In this document: piece after piece, positions 1 through 15,541 of the stretch
Numbering within the stretch: position 1 is the stretch's first letter
How the letters are laid out: every line of letters starts with the position of its first letter
Origin: a virus
IMG/VR virus record: IMGVR_UViG_3300008110_004404
Location: 1-35,120 of that record
Strand: one strand, 5' to 3'
Length of the DNA stretch: 35,120 nucleotides
The notes under the pieces: generated by a model
Seen by the model: the letters and a program-made list of their open reading frames with translations, nothing else
Database searches by the model: none
Told to the model about the DNA's origin: nothing
Program-made: the position numbers and the translations under genes

Positions 1-70
1 ATACGGATTTCACGTTTTTGTTGCATATCTTTGCCGACTGCTACACGAATGTCAAAATCTACGTTACTCA
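1..70 (-). CDS. Unknown phage protein, N-terminal fragment (3' end outside window)
   Basis: The reading frame starts at the ATG at 70 and runs off the left edge; only about 23 residues are visible, beginning MSNVDFDIRV. An AAAGGAG ribosome site lies just upstream of the ATG, and a consensus sigma70-type promoter lies at 101-129. Too little protein is present to assign a family. It is a real gene start because promoter, ribosome site and open frame agree. Confidence 0.6.
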
Positions 71-100
71 TACAAGCTCCTTTAATCAATCAATACATGT

Positions 101-129
101 ATTATATGCCCAAACCGATTTATTGTCAA
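101..129 (-). promoter_or_regulatory. Sigma70-type promoter, perfect consensus
   Basis: On the minus strand TTGACA (129-124) and TATAAT (106-101) are separated by exactly 17 bp. It lies just downstream of a terminator and upstream of the gene starting at 70, so it opens a new transcription unit. Confidence 0.8.
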
Positions 130-136
130 GCCGTGG

Positions 137-2514: not shown

Positions 2515-2961
2515 TTATGCTAACAAAACCTCATCCTCTGTCTTAAAAGGACCTGTATAGTCATATCGTTGCACAAAAATGTACTTTGGACAGAAAATCT
2601 TTACAAATTCTTCATTTTGTTTGATTCCGAACCACCCTGCAACATAGTAACACTTACTCTTGGGAGTTTTAGTAAAAATATGCAGTTTTCGTTTCACATC
2701 ATAAAAACTATTGTAAATCCGATTACCACTAGTAGGATAGATAGCAAACGGAGGTGCTGATTGCTTTTCTTGTTTCCCTACCTTTTCAAACTCAATTTGT
2801 TTTGATTTTTCAATGGCTTTGGTACTACTGTACTTTTCAACAGTATTATCCATGATTACTTGATAATCACTACCCTCTTGAATTACATTACCTACTTTTT
2901 TGTCACCGTCTGTGACTACCCAATATTCACCTTTAATAATAGGTTTAGCTACTAGATTCAT
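2515..2961 (-). CDS. Conserved phage protein, 148 residues
   Basis: Begins MNLVAKPIIKGEYWVVTDG. The C-terminal half has the pattern YPTSGNRIYNSFYDVKRKLH, then TKTPKSKCYYVAGWF, then IFVQRYDYTGPF. This arrangement is a recurrent uncharacterised family in T4-like phages of marine and freshwater bacteria. No enzyme motif is visible. It overlaps the end of the gene at 2945-3427 by 17 bases, consistent with co-translation. Confidence 0.75.
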   Translation of the reverse strand: MNLVAKPIIKGEYWVVTDGDKKVGNVIQEGSDYQVIMDNTVEKYSSTKAIEKSKQIEFEKVGKQEKQSAPPFAIYPTSGNRIYNSFYDVKRKLHIFTKTPKSKCYYVAGWFGIKQNEEFVKIFCPKYIFVQRYDYTGPFKTEDEVLLA

Positions 2962-3427
2962 CTTTATTATCCTTTGTTAATTCTGCTACAAACAAGAAAT
3001 GTTCATAGGCTTTTCTAACTGCTGGAACAGTTAATAGTTTCTCTGCTTCCACAGACATTGCTTTGACTGCTTCTTCACATGCCTCACGTGCGCTAGGCCA
3101 TTGTAGTGCATGGTTCTCTACACCAAATGCTTTACTCAATGCTTTCCAACAACGTAGTTGTTCAGGTGTTAATTCTTTTTGTTTGTTAGTAGGGCGCAAA
3201 TCACTAGCCTTCATTAATGCCGAACTAATTGCATCTTCTGCTACACGGCCAGCCGCAATCATTGGTGCATATGCAGGGTTTACGTTGTAACGTGTGCTTT
3301 GCCCACCGGGATAGCATATTACAAGATGTGCCCCTTCAGGAAACGCATCCATAAGTGTTTGGTCGTACTCATACACTGGTACGTATCTACGACCTACTTT
3401 CTTATAAAAAATTGTTTTCTCGCTCAT
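2945..3427 (-). CDS. Conserved phage protein, 160 residues
   Basis: The N-terminal part has YVPVYEYDQTLMDAFPEGAH followed by VICYPGGQSTRYNVNP; the rest is helical and Ala-rich. The same N-terminal pattern recurs in uncharacterised proteins of T4-like cyano- and other aquatic phages. The ATG at 3427 overlaps the exonuclease stop as ATGA, so translation is probably coupled. Function unknown. Confidence 0.75.
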   Translation of the reverse strand: MSEKTIFYKKVGRRYVPVYEYDQTLMDAFPEGAHLVICYPGGQSTRYNVNPAYAPMIAAGRVAEDAISSALMKASDLRPTNKQKELTPEQLRCWKALSKAFGVENHALQWPSAREACEEAVKAMSVEAEKLLTVPAVRKAYEHFLFVAELTKDNKDESSS

Positions 3428-4428
3428 TGTGCTAACAAATTACCCTTATATGGTTCATTCAACCAACGTGCGAATGTTTCAGCATTTTCTGAAAGTTTTG
3501 TAAGTTCATACTTGCCGCAGAATTTCATAAAATGAACGCCCACTTGTGGTGTTGTAGTAGTGCGAACACCTATGCGAATTGATTCATCAACCAGTTGTTT
3601 AATATCATCGGGTTGTGCTGTTAAGTCGATCAACATCCGATTCCTGTTATAGCAATCACGCACTACTTGTTCTTGATTATTATGGTCAAGCCAGCGTTGT
3701 AGCATGAACGTGTTCCATCGGAAGCCCTGCGCATTACGATCCTCAAATGCCTCACGAATGCCGACACGATTCTTACTACCTTTCTCAGGGGCACGGGGAT
3801 ATGCAGTGAATACATTGTCGCCTGCGTCACCGCGGATAATTTTCTTAAACAGTAAGTACTCAGGATCTTCTAACAGTTTAGGCTGTTTAGTTTTTTTATC
3901 AATAACTGGCTTGCCATTTTCTTTGAAGTATCCCTCTAGAGTGATAAGTTCACCTGCTACCCCCTGATATTGATTGACATTTGGTGCAATTAACTGTACA
4001 AAATCGCTGTCGGTTGAAATTATATAGTGTGTATCTTCTGGGTGCAAGTGAATGAATCGGGCAATCAAGTCATCAGCCTCTGCTTGAGGATGACGTAGGA
4101 CACTGACGTTGGTTTTCCCTTTGATGAAAGTGGTGAACTTTTCGTAAGTTTCCCAAAACATGGTGTTTTCTTCTTTTTCAGCCTCAGTGACTGACATTGC
4201 ATCAACCACACGATTCTTTTTGTAAGGTTCGTATACGGCCTTCCTCCATGATTTCCCCTCCAAGCAGAATACAACATGGTCAATTCCATATCGTTTTACT
4301 GCTTGATTAACACTAGCAAGTGTCAAGTGCAAGGCCATTCCGATCTTTTCTTCTAGTGTAGAGTTGCGGCTTGCAACGTGTCTAGCACGGAAGAAAGTGT
4401 TTGCGGTATCAATGAGTGCGTATTTCAT
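3424..4428 (-). CDS. rnh: 5'-3' exonuclease of the FEN / T4 RNase H type
   Basis: A 334-residue FEN-family nuclease that would remove RNA primers or flaps at replication forks. Acidic metal-binding motifs are in the family order: D7 in ALIDTANTFFRA, E57 in FCLEGKSWR, E117/D119/D120 in EADDLIA, D140/D142 in STDSDF, and D201/D204 in GDAGDN of the helix-hairpin-helix region. T4 RNase H is about 305 residues. Glu rather than Asp at position 57 is a mild variation. The ATG at 4428 has no visible ribosome site. A perfect sigma70 promoter (4435-4463) would start the RNA at or next to this ATG. Confidence 0.88.
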   Translation of the reverse strand: MKYALIDTANTFFRARHVASRNSTLEEKIGMALHLTLASVNQAVKRYGIDHVVFCLEGKSWRKAVYEPYKKNRVVDAMSVTEAEKEENTMFWETYEKFTTFIKGKTNVSVLRHPQAEADDLIARFIHLHPEDTHYIISTDSDFVQLIAPNVNQYQGVAGELITLEGYFKENGKPVIDKKTKQPKLLEDPEYLLFKKIIRGDAGDNVFTAYPRAPEKGSKNRVGIREAFEDRNAQGFRWNTFMLQRWLDHNNQEQVVRDCYNRNRMLIDLTAQPDDIKQLVDESIRIGVRTTTTPQVGVHFMKFCGKYELTKLSENAETFARWLNEPYKGNLLAQ

Positions 4429-4434
4429 GTGTGT

Positions 4435-4463
4435 ATTATATACGTATATTTAGATTTTGTCAA
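4435..4463 (-). promoter_or_regulatory. Sigma70-type promoter of the exonuclease gene
   Basis: TTGACA (4463-4458), 17 bp, TATAAT (4440-4435): a perfect match. The seventh base after the -10 hexamer is 4428, the A of the start codon, so the transcript is predicted to be leaderless. The -35 and spacer lie in one copy of a 22-bp direct repeat. Confidence 0.8.
4442..4463. repeat. 22-bp direct repeat, copy 1 (flanks HNH gene)
   Basis: The + strand begins ACGTATATTTAG and ends TTTTGTCAA. It is identical to 4898-4919. This copy holds the -35 and most of the spacer of the exonuclease promoter. The two copies bracket the HNH endonuclease gene, with a 456-bp repeat-to-repeat period. Confidence 0.9.
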
Positions 4464-4470
4464 ACTTGTA

Positions 4471-4863
4471 TTACCCAAAGTCAAATAATTTTGTATCAAG
4501 TAATTTTGCCCTCCTAGATTCAGTGGGAGTTAGATGATGCTCATTAGCTAATGTGACTATCGGGTGACATAGCTTACACAAAACTTCAATATTTTTAGGA
4601 TCTCTGTTAGAGTTGATCCCGTCAATATGATTGATATCTAATTGTGCAGGATGTGTGATTATCTTTGCCCCGCATGGAAATCCATACTGCCCATTTTTGT
4701 TAGCACAACCGCTATTTAATTTCCATTGATCAACCTCATGTTTACGGTAAGTCCTGTGTGCTGAACAAACTTGTTTGTTCTTATTACTTTTTTTATTATG
4801 TTGACCAACCGTTTTATGACAGTTTGGCATTGAACATTTCAAATAATTTAAGGTAGTTGCCAT
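4471..4863 (-). CDS. HNH homing-type endonuclease
   Basis: A 130-residue free-standing HNH endonuclease. The HNH core is LDINHIDGINSN (residues 75-86), with D76 and H79, followed by N91 and a LCKLCH metal site (C96, C99, H100). Further cysteines C10, C15, C33, C53 and C64 probably bind zinc. Free-standing HNH genes in phages usually act as selfish homing endonucleases, cutting relatives that lack the gene. It has an AGGA ribosome site and its own promoter. It sits between the helicase and exonuclease genes, bracketed by an exact 22-bp repeat, so it looks like a recent insertion. Confidence 0.85.
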   Translation of the reverse strand: MATTLNYLKCSMPNCHKTVGQHNKKSNKNKQVCSAHRTYRKHEVDQWKLNSGCANKNGQYGFPCGAKIITHPAQLDINHIDGINSNRDPKNIEVLCKLCHPIVTLANEHHLTPTESRRAKLLDTKLFDFG

Positions 4864-4890
4864 TAGAATTCCTTTTAAGTTTAAACCTTA

Positions 4891-4919
4891 AATATAAACG
4901 TATATTTAGATTTTGTCAA
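4891..4919 (-). promoter_or_regulatory. Sigma70-type promoter of the HNH gene
   Basis: TTGACA (4919-4914), 17 bp, TATATT (4896-4891). The -35 lies inside the last codons of the helicase gene. The -35 and spacer are the second copy of the repeat that forms the exonuclease promoter. Confidence 0.7.
4898..4919. repeat. 22-bp direct repeat, copy 2
   Basis: Identical to 4442-4463. It includes the final codons and stop of the helicase gene (VDKI, stop). Before HNH insertion the helicase would have run straight into the exonuclease promoter. Confidence 0.9.
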
Positions 4920-6714
4920 CGCCAGGCTGCCCATTTACATATCTAGTCAAGTGGTCTTTGTGTAAGAAAGTTTTAATACGATGGACGTTAGAACAAACCC
5001 CGACTCTATTTTCTACTGAGTTATTGTAGCGGTTACCATCTTTATGCTCACCGTCAATCATGTTGCATTGTCCAGTTAAAAATGTCTCAAAGTCTATATC
5101 ACCGTAATTTTGACAATAAACCGCATAATGATTCATTAAGCAATTAGGTAATCCATTTGTTCCAGTAGGACACCCTGTGCAATATTCAGATTTAATATAG
5201 TCATCGAACCTACGATTTGCACGAATACTGCTTCCAAATTGCTCAGTATTATAGTAACCTGTCTTCAAGTTGTCTAAGAAATAACTAAGACCTTTTTGAA
5301 CTGTCCATTTGCCATCACTGTATGCTTTGACAACTTTTTCGGATAACAAGGTACTTTCAGTCAATACGATACATACTGCACTGCTCATATATACATACAA
5401 CAAACACAGGAAATATTTTTGTTGATGATTGATTGGCAGGCTGTAAATATAATTACGGGCATCTTCGTGATTGCGGAAGTAAGGTAAACGACTTGTACGT
5501 GCATAAAACTGAACCCAATTGTTTTCCACTAATTGTTGACTTGGATTACGAACAACACCTGATACTGCTAAACGAGGCAAGTTGGCACCCATCATAAATT
5601 TATTCTTAACGACAAAAACTGTTGGGCGATTTTCTTTTTCTGGACTGTTAGCCATTTTAATAGCATCAAGCGTATTTTTAGTGTAAACACCATCATACTC
5701 TAAAGTATCAATTAAGTCAACCAAGTCCCAATTTTCTTTGGTACAATCATTACGAACTGTAGTTTCCAAGTCATCCCATGTTTTTGCTCGGTCTTCCTTT
5801 GCGTTGACATTACCGACACGGATCGAAACTGCTGGCATCATCTTACGAATTGGACTATTTGTAGTAACTAAATCCCATGTTTCTTGTGTAATTGAATTTT
5901 GCAAATCTTTAATTACATTAACATGATTTTTATACCAAGAAAAAATAGTACTATAACTGTTGTCTAATGTTGATGGCAAGAAATGCACAAACGGCATAGT
6001 CAATGGGTTAAACGGCATTACTGGTAGTGGCCAGTAAGTCATACTACCGTGATATGTAACACCAGTCTGACTCACGGTTGGGGTAGCTGTGAACTGAATC
6101 ACTAATGATCCATTTTCACGCAATGCATCTAAATTATGAAAAGTAGTAAGTTTTGCTTGATTGTTTTTTGCACCTGTCGAAACTTTCATATCATCAATAT
6201 GAGGGACACCGTTTGCATAATGCGCTTCGTCATTGATAATACAATCAAACTTGATATTAGGGTTCTTATGAATCTTTTTGTGATTCTTATTAAACCATGC
6301 ATTTGTCACGACTAAAATGTTTACATCACCTTTGAGAGATTTTTTACTATTCGCTACATCTAGTAAATCTTTTTCTTCATAGACACAAACAGTAAGACCG
6401 TCAATAGTTTTGTAGTCTAAGTTTTCTAATGTTTCCCAAATGTCATCACGTACTTCACGCGGTGGCGCAATGATTAAAAAATTACGTAAAGATTTAACAC
6501 CCGGAATTTGTAGACGAACAAGGCTAGGAATCAAATAGTTACTAATTACAAAAGTCTTACCAGCGCCGGTGTTTGCTGTACCCAATAGCATATGAGGGTT
6601 GCCTGTAGTAAGCATCAACTCAGCATAATTCAAAATATTATCATGTAGAAATTCACGTTGGTCTTTATCCATCGGATATTTACAAGTGAATTCACGGTTA
6701 GTTTTCATAAGCAT
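4906..6714 (-). CDS. SF2 (DEAH) helicase with C-terminal HNH-like domain
   Basis: A 602-residue protein. Walker A is GTANTGAGKT (residues 45-54), motif II is NDEAHYA with D162 E163 A164 H165, motif III is FTATPT (208-213), and a motif VI-like QFYARTSRLP lies in the second RecA fold. It may unwind or remodel DNA, as T4 UvsW does, but it is not clearly that family. The C-terminal region (about 500-602) has cysteines C512, C515 and C525. These are followed by MIDGEHKDGNRYNNS and a VC...H segment resembling an HNH/zinc nuclease fold. The start could be residue 1 or the second Met at residue 3. A TTGACT-17-TATACT promoter lies at 6748-6776. Confidence 0.82.
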   Translation of the reverse strand: MLMKTNREFTCKYPMDKDQREFLHDNILNYAELMLTTGNPHMLLGTANTGAGKTFVISNYLIPSLVRLQIPGVKSLRNFLIIAPPREVRDDIWETLENLDYKTIDGLTVCVYEEKDLLDVANSKKSLKGDVNILVVTNAWFNKNHKKIHKNPNIKFDCIINDEAHYANGVPHIDDMKVSTGAKNNQAKLTTFHNLDALRENGSLVIQFTATPTVSQTGVTYHGSMTYWPLPVMPFNPLTMPFVHFLPSTLDNSYSTIFSWYKNHVNVIKDLQNSITQETWDLVTTNSPIRKMMPAVSIRVGNVNAKEDRAKTWDDLETTVRNDCTKENWDLVDLIDTLEYDGVYTKNTLDAIKMANSPEKENRPTVFVVKNKFMMGANLPRLAVSGVVRNPSQQLVENNWVQFYARTSRLPYFRNHEDARNYIYSLPINHQQKYFLCLLYVYMSSAVCIVLTESTLLSEKVVKAYSDGKWTVQKGLSYFLDNLKTGYYNTEQFGSSIRANRRFDDYIKSEYCTGCPTGTNGLPNCLMNHYAVYCQNYGDIDFETFLTGQCNMIDGEHKDGNRYNNSVENRVGVCSNVHRIKTFLHKDHLTRYVNGQPGVDKI

Positions 6715-6747
6715 ATCGGCTCTTACTTAGTAGTCAAAGAAGTACGT

Positions 6748-6776
6748 AGTATACACGACTACAGATATTAAGTCAA
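6748..6776 (-). promoter_or_regulatory. Sigma70-type promoter of the helicase gene
   Basis: TTGACT (6776-6771), 17 bp, TATACT (6753-6748). The predicted start near 6741 gives a leader of about 27 bases before the ATG at 6714. Confidence 0.7.
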
Positions 6777-6820
6777 CCAAAAACTTAATACTTTTGTTTG
6801 TTTTAATGTTAATAAGTTAA

Positions 6821-7282
6821 TTAACTAACCTCTGTGCGCCCATTTCCTAGATCCCGTTGTTGCACAGGACGAATGTCTCGGTTTAAGGGATCAGCTTGGG
6901 CCTGTTCATATACTTCTAAAGCAATATTCCTGCAAATTGCAGTCCACCATCTATCGACTATCATAGTGTCGGTATCATCATCACGCATTTTATAACCCGC
7001 TCTTATCAAATTGAGAATGAATTTGTCATTCCAATCCAACTCAAATGCGCCTGCATTGATATTTCCAGGATCAAGTTCCATACTAACTACAGCAACATAG
7101 GGCTCTCCTGCTTGTGTAGCCTTTTCTTTAGCAGACAATTCTACAGTAGGTTTCTTTACTCTGGGCTTGCGTGGTTTCTTTACCTTAGGCATTTTTGGAG
7201 TTGCCGTTGGCTCAGGTAAAACCTGAACAGACTCTACTACCTGTTCTACTGGCTTCTTTTTAAATCTATCAAATATACCCAT
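6821..7282 (-). CDS. Conserved phage protein with Lys/Pro-rich N-terminus
   Basis: A 153-residue protein from the ATG at 7282, which begins MGIFDRFKKKPVEQ. A frame extension upstream lies inside the UvsE gene and is unlikely. Residues 30-50 are Lys/Pro-rich and probably disordered. From residue 57 there is a folded domain: QAGEPYVAVVSMELDP, then GAFELDWNDKFILNLIRAGY and MIVDRWWTAICRNI. This C-terminal pattern recurs in uncharacterised proteins of T4-like aquatic phages. It overlaps the end of the UvsE gene by 14 bases. Confidence 0.75.
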   Translation of the reverse strand: MGIFDRFKKKPVEQVVESVQVLPEPTATPKMPKVKKPRKPRVKKPTVELSAKEKATQAGEPYVAVVSMELDPGNINAGAFELDWNDKFILNLIRAGYKMRDDDTDTMIVDRWWTAICRNIALEVYEQAQADPLNRDIRPVQQRDLGNGRTEVS

Positions 7283-8294
7283 TTTCTTTTGCTTTCTCGT
7301 ATAATTTAAAGCTGGCAAGATTCTTTGCCTTCGATTCGCACATTATATCAAAGTTATCTAAGAATGTCAATGCCCAATCATTTACTGCGTCATTCCAATA
7401 GAAGTCACTATGGGCACGTAGTTTTTGCTTATTGTGACCACTCTCTATCAACGGAATAAGAGCGGGGCGACATGATCTGGAATGGCCTGTAAGTACATCA
7501 TCACGACTGACGGAATAATGCATAGTAGGCCGATTCCCCCTCCAACTATCAATGACCATTTTAACGCGGTCATCATTCGGGTCAATATATTCTCCACTGT
7601 TAACCCAGTGATGATGAATGTCCAATACGATTGGAACCAAATCTGCAATTTCAAGAACTGTGTGTAAACCATGTGTAATCTCCTCGTTTTCAATTGTAAG
7701 TGTGTTTCTCGCTTCCGGCGAGAGTCTTTCATAGGCTTTTCTGATACCATCGGGGCCAGCACGACCAGAGATATGTACATTAATTTTAATGTCTTGAAAT
7801 TTCTGACCATATCCCATCCAGCGAGCCATGTCACAATGATATTCAAATTCTTCTATACTCTTATTTACTACTTCTGGACGATCACTTGCTAATACTACGA
7901 ATTGATCTGGGTGAAAACTTAGTCGTACATTGTTTTCCCTAGCAGTCTTACCCAATGGGGCAAACCAATGTGCAAGCTGATTTTGAACGTCGGTGGATTG
8001 CCAGAATTCAGTGTAATCCTCATGTGTGTAAAAACTTAACATATCACTAGTGATACGCAACATACGCAATGGTTCGGGTAGACTTGCTACTTTCTTAATT
8101 AGTGCATGGGTATTAAGAATGTTTTTCTTAGCAACATCAATAATCTTTTCCTCTACAAGATTACGCTTATTGCGTTTAGCCCATGCCATAGTGGTACCCC
8201 CAGTGTTAAGACCCTCGACACTGGCGATCTCGCCCTTCTTGTTGATTTCGGCAAATTTACACGCAAAGCCGATGCGTTTGATAGGTGTAGTCAT
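7269..8294 (-). CDS. uvsE: UV-damage endonuclease (UVDE family)
   Basis: A 341-residue TIM-barrel DNA repair nuclease that nicks 5' to UV photoproducts. It has the UVDE signatures IGFACK (residues 8-13), LSFHPDQFVVL (125-135), INVHISG (171-177), TIENEE (200-205) and VLDIHHHW (223-230), with the His/Glu/Asp metal ligands in order. I choose the ATG at 8294. A longer frame from TTG at 8330 would overlap the promoter (8302-8330) and adds residues unlike the family. No ribosome site is visible, and the promoter would start RNA at the ATG. The gene would help keep phage DNA intact in sunlit water. Confidence 0.9.
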   Translation of the reverse strand: MTTPIKRIGFACKFAEINKKGEIASVEGLNTGGTTMAWAKRNKRNLVEEKIIDVAKKNILNTHALIKKVASLPEPLRMLRITSDMLSFYTHEDYTEFWQSTDVQNQLAHWFAPLGKTARENNVRLSFHPDQFVVLASDRPEVVNKSIEEFEYHCDMARWMGYGQKFQDIKINVHISGRAGPDGIRKAYERLSPEARNTLTIENEEITHGLHTVLEIADLVPIVLDIHHHWVNSGEYIDPNDDRVKMVIDSWRGNRPTMHYSVSRDDVLTGHSRSCRPALIPLIESGHNKQKLRAHSDFYWNDAVNDWALTFLDNFDIMCESKAKNLASFKLYEKAKENGYI

Positions 8295-8301
8295 GTACAA
8301 G

Positions 8302-8330
8302 AGTGTAGCAGATAATTGATTATTTGTCAA
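8302..8330 (-). promoter_or_regulatory. Sigma70-type promoter of the UV endonuclease gene
   Basis: TTGACA (8330-8325), 17 bp, TACACT (8307-8302). The -35 is embedded in the last codons and stop of the epimerase gene (VDK, stop). The predicted RNA start is 8295-8294, at the ATG. Confidence 0.72.
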
Positions 8331-9153
8331 CTTTTAATAAGTCTCTGAATTCATACATCTTTTTCATGTAGGAACTAGGATTGCCTAAAACACTTATGGG
8401 CAAATCACCCTGTCTGCGTGGTCCTATTTTGGTCAATAAGTCAATGTTTTTGATATCATTTACTTCCCTAAATAGATTTACAATCTCACCTACAGTGTGT
8501 CCTACTCCGTGTCCTAAGCATTCCATGTCATTGGAAGGTTGCTCAATCGCTAATTTTAGTGCTTCGCATATTTCCATAACATGAACATAATCACGCACAC
8601 AAGTGCCATCAACTGTATCATAGTCATTACCAAATATAGTAAATTCTTTGGTACGAATAGCACGAATCAAATTATAGAATAATCCATCTGGATTAGTAGG
8701 TTCTACTACAGTACTACCAATCACATTGTAAAATCTAAAGATAGTATAGGGCACATTGTTTTTTGTACAGTATTCACGAACACAATCTTCGGCTGCTTTC
8801 TTACTTGTGCCATATGCACTTTGACAATACTCTGCGGCACCAGTACTTGCAAATATAAAATTCTTTGTCTTGATACCATTCAATACATTGAGAGTTCCTG
8901 TTAGATTGGTCATATAGTAGTTACTAGGCATCTTCTCACTCTCACCTACATTTACTAGTGCAGCCAAATGTATTACTGCATCATACTCTCCTTGAAGGTA
9001 ATGCATAGTTCTGATATCACAATTAATAAAATGTTTGATATCTACTCTAGGGTTCATTGTGTCTAACCCGTATAACTCATACGTATCCTCTAACAATTTA
9101 GTTAGATGACTACCGATGTAGCCTGAGTTACCTGTGATTAAAATTTTCTTCAT
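8320..9153 (-). CDS. NAD-dependent sugar epimerase, GalE-like
   Basis: A 277-residue short-chain dehydrogenase-type epimerase. The NAD-binding Rossmann motif is GNSGYIG (residues 8-14), the catalytic Ser/Thr is in FASTGA (101-106), and the YxxxK pair is Y114 and K118. A GalE-like VRDYVHV segment follows. The likely reaction is interconversion of nucleotide sugars such as UDP-glucose and UDP-galactose. It is shorter than cellular GalE (about 340). The ATG overlaps the stop of the upstream glycosyltransferase as ATGA. It probably supplies sugar donors to the phage glycosyltransferases. Confidence 0.82.
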   Translation of the reverse strand: MKKILITGNSGYIGSHLTKLLEDTYELYGLDTMNPRVDIKHFINCDIRTMHYLQGEYDAVIHLAALVNVGESEKMPSNYYMTNLTGTLNVLNGIKTKNFIFASTGAAEYCQSAYGTSKKAAEDCVREYCTKNNVPYTIFRFYNVIGSTVVEPTNPDGLFYNLIRAIRTKEFTIFGNDYDTVDGTCVRDYVHVMEICEALKLAIEQPSNDMECLGHGVGHTVGEIVNLFREVNDIKNIDLLTKIGPRRQGDLPISVLGNPSSYMKKMYEFRDLLKVDK

Positions 9154-10499
9154 ATAAATTCAAATAGACTTGCGCCTACTTCCTCTTCTTTTGGTTTAAA
9201 ACTTGGGTCTTTACTTAGGTAAGAATTATCATCAGTATACCATACATTGATAAATTTGTATCTATTCGCTAATACGGATTCAAAATCTTCACGTGCCAAA
9301 TGACTACGCTTTAAATCTTTGATGTAATCACTATACTTTATTGTTTCATATGTGTTAATCTTGGCAGAATTTGTATTGCTCTGCTTGCCGACAAAGTTAT
9401 CTAAAAACTGTATCCACCCTTCAGCCACTAGTTCATCTAACATACGAATATAAACCAATGCACCTTCTGACTGATTGGTTCCGTATATTTGTTTAATGCG
9501 AGTACTGGCATCTTTGATATTTACCTTATGAAAAAAGTCATCTCTAAAATTATCTGACCAATCTTGTGAATCTAACACCACAGTTTGCATATGACCTAAA
9601 CATTCTAAGAATGCAAACGGATAGTTCTCACGCAAGCTAGGCATAAAGAATACACTACATCCTTTAATAAAGTCAACCTTTTCTTGACCAGTGATACCTG
9701 CTTTAATTTCGTAATCAGTTATACCAGCTTCTTCAAATGCTTTGATAAATTTCTTTTCACCGTTGCTATTAGTCATAACTTTGCAAGGTAATTGACATTC
9801 TTTCATTGCACGAATATATGCGTCAGGATTTTTACCCTCTTCCCATCTACCAATAAACAACACACCTTTACGAGGTCCTGTATAAGATTCAAGTAATCCT
9901 CGCTCACTCATTGGCATACGCAATAATGCACAGTTAGTTGCACCAAACTTAGTTAATTCATCTATGTTCTTTTTACTTTGTGTACCAATGATGATATCAG
10001 TAAACTCCATATGCTTGTTATAGAAGTTATGATAACTATCCAAAAACACATCACTGCCTTGACTTTCACGAAAAATCATACTATGTAAATGTGTATAGAA
10101 TACTACCGGAATATACTTGTTGACAGTCATGGCATACGCCGCAGTCATTGCTTCCTGCGTATTACACACAATCATATCATAGATATTTGTTTCAAACGCC
10201 TTTAACAATGATTTGCGAAAGTTGATAATCTTTTCAAAGTTGATTGTATCACTAAATGCAAATGTACCTGTATGGTCTGTGTACTTAAGTGGATCAGTTG
10301 GGTAAATAATATTTGCACCTAACCCACTAATTAAATCGCTAAATAAATTAGTAGGTGCTTTGTCTAAGATGATATCAACTTTCCAATTGATACGCCCACA
10401 CATCTCTGTGAAGCCTTTAGCAAATGAACCAATGCCACCATGTGGGATAAAGTGTTGGTCGCTAATTAAAAATGCAATTCGTTTGTTATATAATTTCAT
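9150..10499 (-). CDS. GT-B glycosyltransferase (GT4-like)
   Basis: About 449 residues from the ATG at 10499, which overlaps the upstream stop as ATGA; a TTG 15 bases earlier is less likely. The N-terminal acceptor domain has HFIPHGGIGSFAKGF. The C-terminal donor domain has VLFIGRWEEGKNPDAYIRA and an EX7E motif in RENYPFAFLE, typical of retaining GT4 enzymes. The acceptor is unknown: modified DNA bases, a virion protein or a host glycan are possible. The adjacent epimerase gene points to sugar transfer. A second glycosyltransferase lies at 16872-18059. Confidence 0.82.
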   Translation of the reverse strand: MKLYNKRIAFLISDQHFIPHGGIGSFAKGFTEMCGRINWKVDIILDKAPTNLFSDLISGLGANIIYPTDPLKYTDHTGTFAFSDTINFEKIINFRKSLLKAFETNIYDMIVCNTQEAMTAAYAMTVNKYIPVVFYTHLHSMIFRESQGSDVFLDSYHNFYNKHMEFTDIIIGTQSKKNIDELTKFGATNCALLRMPMSERGLLESYTGPRKGVLFIGRWEEGKNPDAYIRAMKECQLPCKVMTNSNGEKKFIKAFEEAGITDYEIKAGITGQEKVDFIKGCSVFFMPSLRENYPFAFLECLGHMQTVVLDSQDWSDNFRDDFFHKVNIKDASTRIKQIYGTNQSEGALVYIRMLDELVAEGWIQFLDNFVGKQSNTNSAKINTYETIKYSDYIKDLKRSHLAREDFESVLANRYKFINVWYTDDNSYLSKDPSFKPKEEEVGASLFEFI

Positions 10500-14784: not shown

Positions 14785-15073
14785 TCGGTAATTCCTTTTT
14801 CGCTAATTCTCTCTTGCATTGCTCAATTGCGGCATCAAGCATAGCAGTTGTAATTTCTTTAGGATCCATTCCAAAATGTAGTTTAATTAAATCTACACCT
14901 TGACCACGACTAATCATATCACGTAACATAGGATTTAATGCTTTACAACATTCCAATACGGTCAATTCAATCAACCGTTCAATAGCTTCTTGTTCATAAG
15001 TACCCAACTCATCCCAACAACCATCTGCTATCAATCCTGACTTATATATCAAGTCATCATATATTTCATTCAT
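14777..15073 (-). CDS. Conserved phage protein, 98 residues
   Basis: A helical protein with IERLIELTVLECCKALNPML and a C-terminal DAAIEQCKRELAKKE helix. Proteins with an 'FA.LIv.ECc' helix are frequent in phages without known function, and this one fits loosely. Its stop overlaps the next start and its ATG overlaps the upstream stop (ATGA). Confidence 0.68.
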   Translation of the reverse strand: MNEIYDDLIYKSGLIADGCWDELGTYEQEAIERLIELTVLECCKALNPMLRDMISRGQGVDLIKLHFGMDPKEITTAMLDAAIEQCKRELAKKELPNE

Positions 15074-15270
15074 TCTTGTTTCCTTTGAGGATAATAGTAG
15101 TGACAGTCACTTTGGTTACCATACCAATCTCCGGCCATGCCCCCTAAATATTGAATAGCACATCTAGCACGTTCTTCACTATTGGGACACGTACTCACAA
15201 CCCATGGTGTTGTTTTCCTAGCACGAATATACTGTTTGAGATAATGTATGCTTTGTTCACGGGCCCACAT
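15070..15270 (-). CDS. Unknown phage protein, 66 residues
   Basis: I choose the ATG at 15270 because a GGAG ribosome site lies about 7 bases upstream; a TTG at 15282 would place that site inside the gene. It reads MWAREQSIHYLKQYIRARKT, then CPNSEERARCAIQYLGG and a Tyr-rich tail. Two or three cysteines are present but no clear metal motif. Function unknown. Confidence 0.65.
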   Translation of the reverse strand: MWAREQSIHYLKQYIRARKTTPWVVSTCPNSEERARCAIQYLGGMAGDWYGNQSDCHYYYPQRKQE

Positions 15271-15541
15271 TATCAACTCCAAAGTGGTCTTTAGTCTTAT
15301 CTATCATTCGGTGAAAATGTACAATCTTACCTTCATGCCATCTGCGGTCAAAATCATTGCATGATGTAGTCTTATATTTCTCCAACATAGCAATCTCGTA
15401 TTCAAGCAAACCGATGAATTCTGTTGTCATCACCTTGAAGAATTTTTCTTTAAACGCAGGCAACCACTCCAAGCCTTGTGGGGTGGTATACTCAGCATAA
15501 TACTGCGCTTCGTCAGCAAGTTTTTTAATTCGTTCGTTCAT
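15257..15541 (-). CDS. Conserved phage protein, 94 residues
   Basis: Begins MNERIKKLADEAQYYAEYTT, followed by a helical region KFFKVMTTEFIGLLEYEIAM. The opening 'NERIKKLA..A' is common to a family of small phage proteins with no known role; it resembles the neighbour at 14777-15073 in layout. The ATG overlaps the FolE stop as ATGA. Confidence 0.7.
   Translation of the reverse strand: MNERIKKLADEAQYYAEYTTPQGLEWLPAFKEKFFKVMTTEFIGLLEYEIAMLEKYKTTSCNDFDRRWHEGKIVHFHRMIDKTKDHFGVDNVGP

Follow-up and report, generated by a model that had tools for sequence, protein, structure and literature searches.

Architecture of the exonuclease locus

The DNA analysed here (the window) is the IMG/VR contig IMGVR_UViG_3300008110_004404 itself, positions 1 to 35,120 (35,120 bp), and belongs to a freshwater relative of the jumbo phages. 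Its exonuclease locus comprises the following features, where P denotes the exonuclease promoter, exo the exonuclease gene and str the virion structural gene:

3424–4428, minus strand: exo, 5'-3' exonuclease / RNase H homologue (Pfam 5_3_exonuc_N; PHROG 107)
4435–4463, minus strand: predicted exonuclease promoter P, TTGACA-17-TATAAT, 12/12 consensus positions
4442–4463, minus strand: repeat copy 1, exact 22-mer with the -35 box and 16 of the 17 spacer bases of P
4464–6819, minus strand: whole variable block, replaced by cassettes F5-F2-F0 in the 96–98% identical phage L003
4471–4863, minus strand: predicted HNH endonuclease gene, 130 aa (PHROG 144 and 1571, alignment, weak fold matches)
4864–4890, minus strand: HNH leader with the ribosome-binding-like site AAAAGGAA, known only from window-like contigs
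4891–4919, minus strand: predicted HNH promoter, TTGACA-17-TATATT, 11/12
4898–4919, minus strand: repeat copy 2, exact 22-mer with the -35 box and spacer of the HNH promoter, and the helicase stop inside
4906–6714, minus strand: DEAD-box helicase with a C-terminal HNH-like domain, 602 aa (Pfam DEAD and ResIII; alignment)
6748–6776, minus strand: likely helicase promoter, TTGACT-17-TATACT
6821–7318, minus strand: str, virion structural protein, left flank of the hotspot (PHROG 13349; conserved)

The two repeat copies have the minus-strand sequence TTGACAAAATCTAAATATACGT and are spaced 456 bp apart, at the coordinates given in the initial annotation, which also described their contents correctly: each holds TTGACA and most of the spacer, copy 1 continuing as A-TATAAT to end 6 bp before the exo ATG at 4428, and copy 2 as T-TATATT upstream of the HNH ATG at 4863. 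The helicase stop, likewise assigned to copy 2, is the TAA at 4908–4906 (frame GAC AAA ATC TAA). Over their full length the two promoters agree at 27 of 29 positions, so the likeness goes beyond the 22 bp. Both repeat junctions are found again at 100% identity in contigs from two other metagenomes (L083/L114/L135 and L084/L115/L136), which brings the contigs with window-type junctions to three in all and excludes an assembly artefact of a single contig. With up to three mismatches, the 22-mer occurs in the window at these two places only, where 0.01 matches are expected by chance, and no repeat other than the promoter was found at the HNH insert among those listed by a direct-repeat scan. An Rfam search of the window gave no match.

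The HNH protein matches HNH PHROGs, and residues H79, N91 and H100 are invariant in an alignment of 13 relatives, features that place it in a nuclease class found among homing enzymes; a Pfam search returned no match. The AlphaFold model is moderate (pLDDT 70), and its fold matches are weak, none of them significant, and mostly to HNH nucleases. As for the helicase, the homologue in L008 matches HNH PHROGs at residues 524–591, and the "helicase" is a helicase–HNH fusion, a mobile-looking cassette in the same hotspot, for which no match was found among 50,697 records of cultured phages. A similar leader and promoter lie upstream of the helicases in the window (6715–6820) and in L008 (4051–4157), which are only 30% identical and look as if they had been swapped between two fixed promoters.

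Promoter copies and gene order in related phages

Eighty relatives of the exonuclease, 31 of the HNH protein and 11 of the helicase were retrieved. In the helicase relatives (82–87% DNA identity) that are readable past the helicase stop and not window-like, the helicase lies next to exo with a single promoter copy. The initial annotation had proposed a search for such HNH-free relatives, and they exist (L012, L013, L015, L118, L119, L120 and the L049 group); the outcome it named as refuting its reading, two copies in genomes without HNH, is contradicted by the one copy in each. When the window is aligned with L015, the unaligned part is exactly HNH plus one promoter copy. The HNH gene is likewise missing at this site in L003.

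Of 2.9 million viral contigs, 12 contain the 22-mer without mismatch, always directly before this exonuclease, and twice only in the two window-like contigs among them. With up to three mismatches it was found once each in three other records (at exo), twice in a window-like one, and in none of nine other tested records of up to 166 kb. The possibility that P is a repeat scattered over the genome, a concern raised at the outset, is thereby ruled out. The 35 bp upstream of exo are the same in the window, L003 and L008, and the 22-mer is exact before exo even in phages with exonucleases only 66–84% identical. The identity of the two copies is therefore no proof of a recent local duplication, and two parents could each have contributed one.

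Duplication of a genome's own exo promoter is confined to the window, where 27 of 29 positions agree; the next best value among 71 other islands is 22/29, and shuffled sequences give 18–21. A chance repeat is rejected on the 27/29 identity and the expectation of 0.01. That two strong phage promoters converged on one consensus could draw on the sigma70 consensus and AT-rich spacers common to several promoters here, but is extremely improbable, as the other islands do not rise above the shuffle background and every relative has the end of its helicase gene fused to P.

Two rival histories must be weighed against these data. In the first, which the initial annotation implies, HNH went straight into P of a genome ordered helicase-P-exo, and the second copy arose in the process, by a staggered break with fill-in or by template switching. 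This agrees with the identity of the copies over 22 bp, with two copies occurring only in the window type, and with the gene order of the closest backbone relatives, the L049 group (88–89% DNA identity), which have helicase-P-exo and no HNH. Diverged phages, however, have the 22-mer before exo without any mismatch as well, so that no local duplication is needed to explain the identity, and since both the helicase-P and the P-exo sequences are uninterrupted in the window, a target site inside P would stay cuttable. No HNH homing enzyme is known to leave 22-bp target duplications, and we regard this history as possible but rather doubtful. The claim that HNH entered and thereby duplicated the promoter is thus not established, given the exact 22-mer before such diverged exonucleases; the accompanying claim, that both genes keep a promoter, stands to the extent that HNH and exo each have a good sigma70-type promoter as judged from sequence.

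In the second rival history, the helicase cassette arrived later, upstream of an existing HNH-P-exo arrangement, and brought copy 2 with it. HNH directly before exo without a helicase is indeed common (L016, L092, L093, L102), and because the last helicase codons and stop overlap the -35 box and spacer of P in the relatives, transfer of the helicase must carry the start of P. However, the helicase is 86% identical in DNA to that of the L049 group, a value that matches the backbone as under vertical inheritance, and that group lacks HNH; moreover, the HNH relatives in helicase-free arrangements abut the str stop and do not have the leader seen in the window. We consider this order of events unlikely. 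Because HNH before exo without helicase is common and the helicase itself is mobile-looking, any order of arrival is suggested by parsimony only.

A cassette hotspot between str and exo

The variable region is bordered on the left by the str stop codon and on the right by the exonuclease promoter. In the cultured jumbo phage PA5oct (Wroclawvirus), whose exonuclease is about 50% identical to that of the window, str abuts exo directly; the genes overlap by one base and there is no island. One contig with the str-exo locus, among the 2.9 million searched, is 367 kb long. The overlap of the border genes in PA5oct and this long contig place the window in a jumbo-phage-like group and make the empty site the likely ancestral state.

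Among loci with both borders there are 64 distinct islands, 58 to 3280 bp in length and with 32 gene arrangements; three are empty (L053, L061, L075), and 29 contain at least one HNH-type gene (counted by hand from the table). By profile, the cassette families comprise HNH, helicase with C-terminal HNH, HNH with NUMOD3, endonuclease VII/HNH-like and ParB-like proteins. One family has a weak methyltransferase match, families F0, F3, F4, F6 and F9 have no profile match, and many (F0, F2, F3, F4, F6) have no clear nuclease match. The exo tree requires at least 36 switches of the gene directly upstream. Two insertion modes are seen: either the gene ends at or inside the promoter (in 41 of 79 islands the exo promoter contains the stop of the last gene), or it sits between promoter and exonuclease. 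An instance of the latter is a 196-aa gene in L004 (3274–3899), which takes over the promoter and has an ATGA overlap with the exonuclease. In L103 (3567–3631) and similar ParB-type islands, the -10 box of the exonuclease promoter falls within a palindrome that is nearly perfect (AATAATATGTGTATAATCTACACATATTATT) and could be an operator.

The positions of the breaks were compared in pairs with exonucleases at least 90% identical and different upstream neighbours. Similarity stops mostly at 29–37 bp before the ATG, i.e., the outer edge of P, or at 0–2 bp, the ATG itself. The window and L003 are 98% identical over 2569–4463 and 96% over 6820–9722 with other genes between; helicase and HNH are replaced in L003, and the two sequences match again from TTGACA onwards. 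In diverged pairs, constraint on the function of P would by itself be enough to end similarity there. Mismatches between the exo genes of the window and L003 are concentrated at the 5' end (20/330 vs 10/660, p=0.0002). A comparable pattern is seen in L014 and L118. These phages are near-identical, but their helicases, set between similar promoters, share about 30% identity; five mismatches fall in the 136 bp from P on (promoter and first 97 bp of exo), followed by none in 1300. Such extra 5' mismatches are the pattern that co-conversion would leave (PMC2988022). As the excess is absent in other swapped pairs (L018/L019, L052/L054), co-conversion next to exo is only suggested.

Other sequences recur outside the hotspot. 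A promoter with leader (TTGACAATAAATC...TATAATAC..TGTATTGATTGATTAAAGGAGCT; window 68–130, L084 10095–10165) recurs at about 93% identity before the next small gene, just past the window edge, and is present twice each in L008 and L049. A 218-bp segment (window 15069–15286, with an ORF at 15070–15282; L074 7373–7590) is 92% identical in distant relatives, where it lies downstream of exo, as expected for a gene that moved.

Origin of the second copy and comparison with known systems

The promoter repeat is real and can be explained in outline as the result of a nuclease cassette in a phage hotspot. Nuclease-type cassettes move into the str-exo stretch with P as the constant right-hand border, and the window holds two of them in tandem, helicase–HNH and HNH, both with a copy of P behind them. 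Most likely, a helicase-P-exo genome recombined in or beside the promoter with a genome carrying (promoter)-HNH-P-exo, probably during a DNA-break-driven event in a co-infection, similar to intronless homing; we regard this as the probable origin of the two-copy arrangement. Copy 2 would then have lost its exonuclease, its 11/12 consensus promoter now serving HNH, and copy 1 would still serve the exonuclease. Each copy is best read as an inherited exonuclease promoter; a target-site duplication may have taken place but is not needed. The proposed HNH parent with the leader of the window was not found among the sampled genomes, and in the exo tree the window lies close to neither of the putative parents.

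The HNH promoter itself may be a hybrid, composed of the -35 box and spacer of the exonuclease promoter and the -10 box and leader of a cassette, since HNH genes elsewhere mostly begin at the str stop without a promoter, and the leader in the window resembles those of other cassettes (AACTTAAAAGG). No donor for this leader was found among the sampled genomes. Because the helicase-P and P-exonuclease junctions are both intact, the target site, if HNH is a homing enzyme, spans all of P or lies elsewhere. The latter would be analogous to the seg and mob enzymes of T4, which cleave at a distance from where their genes are inserted (PMC2988022), and the site could be, for instance, in the exonuclease gene.

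The T4 enzymes, seg (GIY-YIG) and mob (HNH), are free-standing, occupy intergenic sites and spread by intronless homing, and T4 mobile elements feature displaced promoters, promoters embedded in endonuclease genes and co-conversion (PMC2988022). The window shares with them a free-standing, intergenic HNH gene in the orientation of its neighbours, a downstream gene with displaced or additional promoters, and hints of co-conversion in the flanking gene. In T4, however, no seg or mob gene has its own early promoter, and the endonuclease gene often contains the promoters of the genes downstream. In the window, HNH instead has a copy of the neighbour's sigma70-type promoter. By this analogy the element is best read as a free-standing HNH endonuclease variant of the T4 seg/mob type. 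Elements of this kind have already been described in other phages, although the promoter doubling is unique in the sample studied. PA5oct has the same two flanking genes in the same order, but differs in having no island.

PeSLs, as presented in PMC4503421 (citing Arbiol 2010 and Comeau 2014), combine a promoter with a stem-loop and occur where shuffled T4-type genes meet, and the promoter-bearing intergenic sequence at such joints resembles what is seen here. P is, however, tied to one gene rather than scattered; no stable stem-loop lies next to it (folding z from -1.1 to 0.7) and no terminator-like site was found at the joints, and P is not a PeSL on these grounds. As regards a transposon with a target-site duplication, 22-bp repeats do flank HNH, but the sequence is equally conserved before exo in diverged phages; the 456-bp unit codes for HNH only and not for a transposase, and the direct repeats listed include no element ends.

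The autorepression operator of I-TevI (PMC2988022) offers a parallel, since sequence close to the promoter of the endonuclease is similar to the region of the insertion site, although here the resemblance is an exact promoter copy. That the HNH protein targets the exonuclease promoter region, with the second copy acting as an operator for self-repression and tuning of the exonuclease, is very unlikely. If true, a single promoter sequence would combine the roles of border, target and regulator, and the tuned neighbour would be the counterpart of T4 RNase H, which processes homing breaks.

The locus offers a well-sampled natural series, from the empty site through helicase alone, HNH alone and both to many other cassettes, of the ways in which incoming nuclease genes establish themselves in phage genomes and leave the adjacent gene unsilenced. 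T4 RNase H is reported to influence homing and co-conversion (PMC2988022), and the hotspot adjoins a homologue of this enzyme, which could help its occupants spread.
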